From Bacillota bacterium (GTDB lineage Bacteria > Bacillota_I > Bacilli_A > Erysipelotrichales > Coprobacillaceae): DNA of 50,314 bases. This document shows, piece after piece, positions 12,814-26,377 of this stretch. The notes below the pieces were generated by a model, which ran no database searches, was not told where the DNA came from, and was given only the letters and a program-made list of their open reading frames with translations. Numbering within the stretch: the first letter of the stretch is position 1; each line of letters begins with the position of its first letter. The stretch is from NCBI GenBank assembly GCA_030540195.1, contig JAUNWT010000007.1, positions 1 through 50,314 of the forward strand, written 5' to 3'. The position numbers and the translations under genes were made by a program.

Positions 12814-12880
12814 ATTTCTTTGAAGAAAAAATGTAAAAAAAAGCGAATATAGTAATGAAAGGAAAATTGTATGGAATATA

Positions 12881-25193: not shown

Positions 25194-25928
25194 ATGATGC
25201 AATTATCACGTGAAGAGAGAATGCTTCACATTGGAAAAATGACAAATGTCAGAGATCTTGGAGGGTATGAAACTCAAGAAGGTTATTATACAAAATCACA
25301 TAAATTTGTAAGAAGCACTTGCCCAAGTGGAATCAGTGATGATTTAAAAGAAAAATTTTATGATTATGGTATTCGCACAGTTATTGATTTAAGAAGTGAT
25401 TATGAGCTTGTTCATCAACCTCATAGTTTAAAAGATTATAAAGATATTGAATACTATCATATTAACTTATTACAAAATGAGAATATGTCAGTACTTCCTG
25501 ATGATATTAAAGATTATCAAGATTTAAGTGGATTTTATATTTTTATGATTGAAGCCAATAAAAAACAATTCAAAAAAGTATTTGAAGTCATTTTAAATCA
25601 TCCTTATGATTGTACACTCTTTAACTGTTCTGCAGGAAAAGATCGTACCGGAATTCTTGCTTGTTTACTTTTAGATCTTGCGGGATGTCATGAATATGAT
25701 ATCGTGAAAGACTATTCAGAATCTTATGAAAACAACATGGAAATGATGAAACAACTAGAAGAAATGTTGCCAAAGGAAGAAGAAAAATTCTTAGGTTCAG
25801 ATCCACGTGTGATGATGCGTTTTCTAGCGTATTTAAGAGAACAATATGGTAGTAGTAAAGGATATTTATTAAATATTGGTCTAAATGAAGATCAAATCGA
25901 AGAAATTAAAGAAAATTTCATAATTTAG
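25194..25928 (+). CDS. Tyrosine/serine phosphatase-like protein (Y_phosphatase3 type)
   Basis: A 244-residue protein with the N-terminal NVRDLGGYETQEG of this family, a general-acid region, and the P-loop FNCSAGKDRTG (nucleophile Cys145, Arg151). The residue before the cysteine is Asn144, where His is usual, which may change the pKa of the nucleophile. Relatives such as Listeria LipA dephosphorylate phosphotyrosine and phosphoinositides. It follows the radical SAM gene by 15 bases. No signal peptide is seen, so it acts in the cytoplasm. A hairpin directly follows it. Confidence 0.87.
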   Translation: MMQLSREERMLHIGKMTNVRDLGGYETQEGYYTKSHKFVRSTCPSGISDDLKEKFYDYGIRTVIDLRSDYELVHQPHSLKDYKDIEYYHINLLQNENMSVLPDDIKDYQDLSGFYIFMIEANKKQFKKVFEVILNHPYDCTLFNCSAGKDRTGILACLLLDLAGCHEYDIVKDYSESYENNMEMMKQLEEMLPKEEEKFLGSDPRVMMRFLAYLREQYGSSKGYLLNIGLNEDQIEEIKENFII

Positions 25929-25932
25929 AAGA

Positions 25933-25975
25933 AAAAACGCCTCCACATGACGAATAAATAAGTGGAGGTATTTTT
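25933..25975 (+). promoter_or_regulatory. Hairpin covering a ribosome binding site; possible terminator
   Basis: CCTCCAC (25940-25946) pairs perfectly with GTGGAGG (25962-25968). A G-U pair, one mismatch and a five-pair A/T extension (25933-25937 with 25971-25975) lengthen the stem. The right arm contains GGAGGT (25964-25969), the ribosome binding site of the ATG at 25976. The structure resembles both a weak terminator for the phosphatase operon and an occluded ribosome binding site. Confidence 0.7.
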
Positions 25976-26377
25976 ATGAAAGCAATCACTTATAAAGAAA
26001 AAAAGGAAGAATTAGAAAAAATATTTCGAGGATATCATCGCGCACAAATGAAGTTGCAGCTTTTAAAAGAAAAAAGCTATTACCCAAGTATTCAACTAGA
26101 TACCGTAAGGGAAAGAAAAAGTTATTACCAAGATAAAGGAACTCAATGGATTGATTCGCTTTATAATAAAGAAGAATTAGAAAAAGCGATACAATCCTAT
26201 GAATTTATTTTAAGTTGTTTAAGTGCAGAAAGCCGTCAAATCATTGAAAAAGATTTTCTCTATAAAGATAAAAAGGATTGGTGGGTTTTGTATTACTCAA
26301 GAAGTACATATTATCGTTTAAAAACAAGAGCGATGGAAGAAGTTTTGTATTATTTTAATTGTTTAGAAAAATCATGA
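25976..26377 (+). CDS. Small protein with sigma-region-4-like C-terminus, unknown function
   Basis: A 133-residue, highly charged, Tyr-rich protein. The first 60 residues look like helical coil (YKEKKEELEKIFRGYHRAQMKLQLLKE). The C-terminal half, from LSAESRQIIEKDFLYKDKKDWW to YYSRSTYYRLKTRAMEEVLYYF, has the pattern of a sigma-70 region 4 or phage ArpU/RinA-type helix-turn-helix. I cannot assign it to a named family. No promoter is visible between it and the phosphatase gene, and its ribosome binding site is within a stem. Its end overlaps the tspO end by 23 bases on the other strand. Confidence 0.7.
   Translation: MKAITYKEKKEELEKIFRGYHRAQMKLQLLKEKSYYPSIQLDTVRERKSYYQDKGTQWIDSLYNKEELEKAIQSYEFILSCLSAESRQIIEKDFLYKDKKDWWVLYYSRSTYYRLKTRAMEEVLYYFNCLEKS

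Follow-up and report, generated by a model that had tools for sequence, protein, structure and literature searches.

Results

Gene arrangement at the locus and a hairpin over the ribosome binding site

The window analysed here is the whole 50,314-nt stretch of contig JAUNWT010000007.1 (assembly GCA_030540195.1), and all coordinates refer to it. A gene for a Y_phosphatase3 tyrosine phosphatase-like protein (25194..25928, + strand; PF13350, E 4.7e-54, and the ORF list) is followed on the same strand by a gene encoding a 133-aa protein (25976..26377, +). The interval between them can be folded into a hairpin in which seven Watson-Crick pairs join CCTCCAC (25940-25946) to GTGGAGG (25962-25968) around a loop of 15 nt (25947-25961). 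The left arm, (G)CCTCCAC (25939..25946, +), and the right arm, GTGGAGGT (25962..25969, +), also allow a G-U pair between G at 25939 and T at 25969, and an A-tract (25932-25937) stands opposite a T-tract (25971..25975, +). The full GGAGGT Shine-Dalgarno (SD) site (25964-25969) is inside the right arm, and the ATG (25976) is 6 nt further on, the T-tract forming the spacer. Pairing, fold and relatives agree with the earlier note, made from the sequence alone, which had placed the SD in a perfect 7-bp stem with an A/T extension, and the stem with its 3' T-tract does carry the terminator-like features described there.

The minimum free energy of the hairpin was -14.7 kcal/mol (z = -3.94 against 200 dinucleotide shuffles). 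When the left side was shuffled, the stem of the window by itself was borderline (p = 0.064), and the weight for the hairpin is therefore carried by the relatives.

Conservation of the hairpin in relatives

The leaders of 40 family orthologues were read, and all but one, which was too short, entered the stem statistics. Nearly all consisted of a CCTCC-like left arm, a TATA-like loop core, a GGAGG right arm, a T-rich spacer and ATG. In the shuffle test the stem reached p ≤ 0.05 in 29 of the 39 orthologue leaders, compared with 4/24 for dprA and 4/23 for comGA, after 5 of 29 dprA and 3 of 26 comGA leaders with an unclear SD or too short a sequence had been left out. Pairing of the SD in the read-through RNA was predicted at 0.7 or more in 39/39 orthologue leaders (controls: dprA 8/25, comGA 9/26), and the median T fraction 3' of the SD was 0.875 in the orthologue leaders, 0.375 for dprA and 0.5 for comGA. 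Among 21 representatives, left arms paired better with their own right arms than swapped ones did (24.1 vs 17.7, Wilcoxon p = 3.5e-4), leader L045 being the clear exception. This indicates that the arms of the hairpin co-evolve and compensate across genera. A chance stem was also considered and is ruled out by the leaders of the relatives, despite the p value of 0.064 for the window alone.

Leader L025 retains the TATA motif with no clear CCTCC arm, and L044 forms a different stem. These two and L033 were left out of the alignment of the other 37 leaders, in which the only block of invariant letters outside the start codon, ATA, lies in the hairpin loop. The divergent copies L292 (genome G019) and L284 (G210, from the sister family) keep the SD-hiding hairpin and have no TATA-type loop motif, which suggests that the hairpin can persist while the spelling of the promoter changes.

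A putative competence-type promoter in the hairpin loop

The earlier note had seen no promoter between the two genes. A bipartite promoter-like element nevertheless lies between the end of the phosphatase gene and the SD, consisting of a -35-like box GAAGAAAAAA (25928..25937, +), about 10 nt, and a -10-like box TGACGAATAAA (25948..25958, +). The phosphatase stop codon (25926-25928) touches or overlaps the -35 box, the left arm of the SD-hiding hairpin falls in the promoter spacer, and the -10 box, identified from the 37-leader alignment, is in the loop. The element resembles a ComX/SigH box. In the genome of the window the -35 box also occurs upstream of comGA and dprA, as it does before other genes of the genus, and the -10 box matches GAGCGAATAAA of comGA. 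Both genes share the -35/-10 spelling, comGA having GAAGAAAAAAAC..GAGCGAATAAAC and dprA GAAGAAAAAACA..GGCTTATATA. Transcription starts directly after the published ComX motif (PMC6560143); with the start placed in the same way, the RNA is predicted to begin here at about 25960-25964.

Within the genus of the window, sites of the same type were seen, in this species or in F. faecis, in front of comGA, recA, Rpn and GG-peptide genes. At comGA, recA, the Rpn genes and a gene for a 189-aa protein the SD and gene start lie directly behind the site, and the GG-leader peptides begin about 50 nt behind it. By count alone, a relaxed pattern was not enriched in two genomes of the genus (33 vs 27 control sites), and sites matching 15 of 16 positions of the published ComX core by itself were no commoner in the window than expected by chance (4, compared with 2-10 in shuffles).

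Co-variation of the promoter spelling with com genes

For comparison with com genes, dprA was collected from 29 genomes and comGA from 26. The spelling of the element drifts with the genus, and it does so jointly in the gene for the 133-aa protein and in the com genes. It reads GAAGAAAAAA ... CGAATAAA or TATATA in Faecalibacillus, AAAGTAAT ... GTATATG or GTAAAAG in Thomasclavelia, and AAGTGTTT ... GGGATAWA in genus g9, where AAGTGTTT is found at all three genes. Across 23 genomes for each com gene, the leader of the 133-aa-protein gene scored 8.1 against the comGA leader of its own genome and 2.1 against those of other genera (p = 2.8e-4), and 7.3 and 1.6, respectively, against dprA leaders (p = 2.9e-4); both p values are optimistic because the genera were unequally sampled. 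Counter-examples to the likeness within a genome are G024 and G030 (both genes), G011 (comGA) and G022 (dprA). In G018 the gene for the 133-aa protein is absent, and its dprA and comGA leaders, judged by eye, are without the element.

The predicted regulon across the family

A search of six genomes with the loop motif led to genes for DprA, a ComGA-like ATPase, a peptidase-C39 exporter and Rpn nucleases, and an A-rich box stood 10-11 nt before the motif at the sites found. The pattern AAAGAAA-N11..16-CGTATATA, which was picked after these sites had been inspected, gave 187 sites in 43 family genomes, and its reversed control 23. Twelve genomes from four genera accounted for 174 of these sites and for 8 of the control sites, and the spacing was almost always identical. 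In genus-specific spelling, the same element stands before comGA and dprA; some members of the family also have it ahead of the genes for RecA, peptidase-C39 exporters, GG-leader peptides and Rpn nucleases. Profiles assigned the downstream proteins to DprA, T2SSE/ComGA-like (277 bits for ComGA, under the equivalog cut-off of 300), Peptidase_C39 plus ABC, RecA, and PD-(D/E)XK transposase/Rpn; no profile match was obtained for the downstream 189-aa, 114-aa and 52-aa proteins and one 313-aa protein. The idea that the element is a general repeat spread over the genomes was rejected: a generic CTCC..TATA..GGAGG pattern was only weakly enriched over relatives, but it pointed to the Rpn leaders.

Predicted SD pairing of 0.8 or more was counted in regulon leaders with an immediate start codon, the classes of which were set by simple motifs. 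It was reached in 11/14 leaders of the 133-aa-protein family, 8/20 of Rpn and other genes, 3/6 of C39 exporters and 2/7 of ComGA, and in 0/6 of a 170-190-aa family, 0/4 of DprA and 0/1 of RecA. Since other regulon classes also reach this level, the nested device recurs in some members. The leaders of genes resembling PD-(D/E)XK/Rpn-type nucleases (L049-L054 in G033, L055 in G000 and L056 in G012) have a competence-type promoter set inside a hairpin that holds the SD, with many near-identical copies in G033.

Two further groups of genes were observed behind these promoters. Peptides of 52-53 aa with GG leaders lie behind competence-type boxes in genus g11 (L140, L154) and in Faecalibacillus (L354, L377), with peptidase-C39 exporters in the same regulon; these peptides are candidates for competence-linked bacteriocins or pheromones. 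A family of 169-189-aa proteins with the motif HQTxQLEYFYC belongs to the regulon of several genera (L362, L076, L114), and its tested member, L362, had no Pfam or NCBIfam match. In 40 genomes of the sister family a SigH-type -35 pattern showed no clear enrichment; 'AGGAA' boxes seen by eye in some leaders there are anecdotal. ComEC-type proteins are described as lost in Erysipelotrichaceae (PMC6299819), an observation that weighs against a complete uptake apparatus for some or all members of that family.

The 133-aa protein and its sigma-region-4-like C-terminus

The 133-aa protein could not be assigned to a family in the earlier note. It matches NF045770, the MG284/MPN403 family, with 74.8 bits (E 3.8e-21), over the curated cut-off of 37.3, and all 39 aligned sequences match this profile at E ≤ 0.01. 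It also matches PHROG 248 (phage transcriptional activator), as well as the ArpU family TIGR01637 with 36.7 bits (E 4.2e-9), under the curated cut-off of 43.1. No Pfam family at E ≤ 1 and no sigma region profile were matched, and a profile-based sequence search of the PDB gave nothing convincing (best E 0.19).

The AlphaFold2 model, built from 39 sequences (pLDDT 81), begins with a helix, which is followed by a long middle helix and, at the C-terminus, by a helix-turn-helix. Its only helices are 6-32, 54-81, 84-95, 102-105 and 109-132; no sigma region 2 is seen in it, with the loop at 35-51 being unreliable. Residues from about 57 to 133 align with many sigma region 4 chains (best Z 6.7), with Foldseek E values above 0.001 and thus not significant, and the nearest viral models include phage transcription regulators and region-4 proteins (best E 1.1e-3). 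In the model, the C-terminus resembles sigma region 4, and profile, model and fold matches are in line with the sigma-region-4-like end read from the sequence.

A protein search found a single copy in 40/43 family genomes, and a profile search added divergent copies in G019 and G026 and none in G018. Profile matches were obtained in 234/294 genomes of the order. NF045770 was matched in 47/198 genomes of the class, several of which have in-frame TGA as in mycoplasmas, and in 0/14 control genomes. Copies in the sister family mostly have about 95-120 aa. Named matches place the window in the genus Faecalibacillus, the F. faecis protein being 93 percent identical. A literature search for MG284/MPN403 returned unrelated matches only.

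A SigH-like sigma factor in the same genomes

SigH-profile matches, below the equivalog cut-off, were found in 30/30 genomes tested, and in most of these the protein is full-length, at about 200 aa. In the genome of the window the SigH-like sigma gene follows the RlmB gene (TIGR00186 over its cut-off), and its sigma region 2 is over the cut-off. The rlmB-sigH neighbourhood is typical of sigH. Elsewhere, SigH drives com genes and competence in Lactobacillus sakei (PMC3364868), the pneumococcal ComX box is CGAATA, and ComX of S. pneumoniae controls bacteriocin and recombination-promoting-nuclease-like loci (PMC6560143). Because SigH and ComX control com, bacteriocin and nuclease-like loci in other bacteria and a SigH-like gene is present here, the SigH-like protein adjoining rlmB would most likely be the reader of the promoter. 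The 133-aa protein would then probably be a secondary regulator within the competence programme, with DNA binding of the sigma-region-4-like/ArpU-like kind.

Discussion

Proposed mechanism and rival explanations

From the sequence comparisons we assign a probability of roughly 0.77 to the reading that the unit at 25.9-26.4 kb is a competence-regulon gene with its promoter nested in the SD hairpin. RNA of the phosphatase operon would form the full hairpin with its T-tract and be terminated at the T-tract, and in RNA reading through the SD would be paired and the gene not translated. With the competence sigma factor active, RNA would start at or just before the right arm, having the SD at its 5' end and lacking the left arm; begun in the loop and free of that arm, it would be translated. 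The hairpin would thus be an insulator of the regulator gene against leaky expression, not a sensor. The leaders of comGA and dprA are short and of the same shape without the hairpin, which therefore appears to be an addition. A calculation on the short RNA beginning near the right arm counts against this mechanism: in the window the SD is predicted to pair at 0.79 with the coding region. Pairing in such short RNAs was at least 0.7 in 7/39 leaders, and the median was 0.47.

Alternatively, the hairpin could be no more than an intrinsic terminator that ends the phosphatase operon and has been squeezed onto the next SD, the hiding of the SD being an unselected by-product. The form of A-tract, stem and T-tract and the T-rich spacer suit this explanation, and comGA leaders such as that of G001 have an ordinary inverted repeat with a T-tract just upstream of the -35 box, so that terminator insulation would be a common theme. 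However, the Rpn leaders of G033 keep a CCTCC/GGAGG hairpin and the SD without a T-tract, and a 15-nt loop is long for a terminator, the hairpin being left unlisted by a terminator scan with a loop limit of 8. We consider a mere terminator unlikely; as termination and SD hiding are not exclusive, it would only trim the explanation preferred here. A switchable RNA, with a stem that opens as a thermosensor, in response to a trans-acting RNA or when the upstream gene is translated, fits the stability of the SD hairpin. This is the idea of the earlier note, in which transcription would have to pass the terminator-like structure and the stem would have to be released, perhaps in one of these ways, before the protein is made. 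An RNA started in the loop, though, would never contain the left arm. The promoter matched by the conserved loop bases also occurs before genes without a hairpin. In addition, ribosomes on the phosphatase gene stop at 25928, ahead of the stem, and would therefore reach the left arm at most. We regard such a switch as very improbable. Of the earlier interpretation, the SD in a conserved terminator-like hairpin and the sigma-4-like end are supported, and control by stem opening and the lack of a family are not; with the stem conserved in relatives and no profile match to a non-DNA-binding family, the ideas of a hairpin and of a regulator were not refuted.

The 133-aa protein might itself be the specificity factor of the competence promoters, as a small sigma or an obligate co-activator that autoactivates through the nested promoter. 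This is in line with its sigma-region-4-like C-terminus, with the regulon promoter carried by its own leader family-wide (bar the exceptions noted above), with the absence of the element at dprA and comGA in G018, which has no such gene, and with the persistence of the family in small mycoplasma-like genomes with in-frame TGA. On the other hand, the protein has no sigma region 2 in the model and no Pfam match, its sister-family copies are short, a SigH-like sigma with region 2 is at hand, and variation in the recognition helix does not discriminate between SigH and the 133-aa protein (0.61 against 0.63). We find this role doubtful. An equally tentative extension, which we would not expect to hold, is that the MG284/MPN403-family protein is a region-4-only partner working with SigH or replacing it at the com -35 box and activating its own gene, where the terminator and the SD lock would keep leakage from igniting the feedback. 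If true, a bistable competence switch would here be locked twice over, and its regulator would have been retained as far as minimal genomes of the mycoplasma kind.

Comparison with known systems

The nested arrangement has a counterpart in the T4 late genes I-TevI, segB, soc and e, for which a review (PMC2988022) describes nested promoters. There, too, the ribosome binding site is hidden in long read-through transcripts (here as predicted, at 0.7 or more in 39/39 leaders), and a phase-specific promoter gives a translated RNA from which part of the hairpin is missing, as we infer here. Unlike the T4 late genes, this is a chromosomal bacterial gene with a competence-type promoter and a terminator-like T-tract, kept over many genera. 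The predicted regulon shares with those of ComX/SigH (PMC6560143, PMC3364868) the CGAATA-type -10, targets of the comGA/dprA/recA class, bacteriocin-type peptides and Rpn-type nucleases. It differs in including an MG284/MPN403-family gene and in the hairpin nested in the promoter, and its -35 is A-rich, whereas the pneumococcal ComX motif has a T-rich stretch (PMC6560143). The protein is like the MG284/MPN403 family (NF045770), matched over the cut-off, and like the ArpU phage late regulators (TIGR01637), with a weak full-length match under the cut-off; unlike both, it is encoded here on the chromosome in single copy beside a phosphatase gene, with a competence promoter.

In the literature searched, outside subscription journals and preprints, no account of such a competence regulon or of a chromosomal T4-type design was found. 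The present reading would provide a testable role for the MG284/MPN403 family, known only by mycoplasma gene numbers, predict a competence regulon in the common gut bacteria Faecalibacillus, Thomasclavelia and their relatives, and mean that the T4 arrangement, with a promoter placed within the hairpin of the RBS, is conserved in a bacterial chromosome.

Other competence-type features in the window

A prepilin peptidase gene (PF06750/PF01478; 14077-14883, +), of the type IV pilus/competence type, is also found in the window, with no competence box evident immediately in front of it. A second competence-type promoter, TTGAAGAAAAAATG..AGCGAATATA (12825-12851, +), lies downstream of a gene that we take to be shikimate-kinase-like. 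The only features in the roughly 35 nt behind it are a frame of six codons and an inverted repeat, rich in A/T and with a T-run, the repeat being absent from the list of the terminator scan. Judged by its sequence, this promoter may possibly serve a small RNA.
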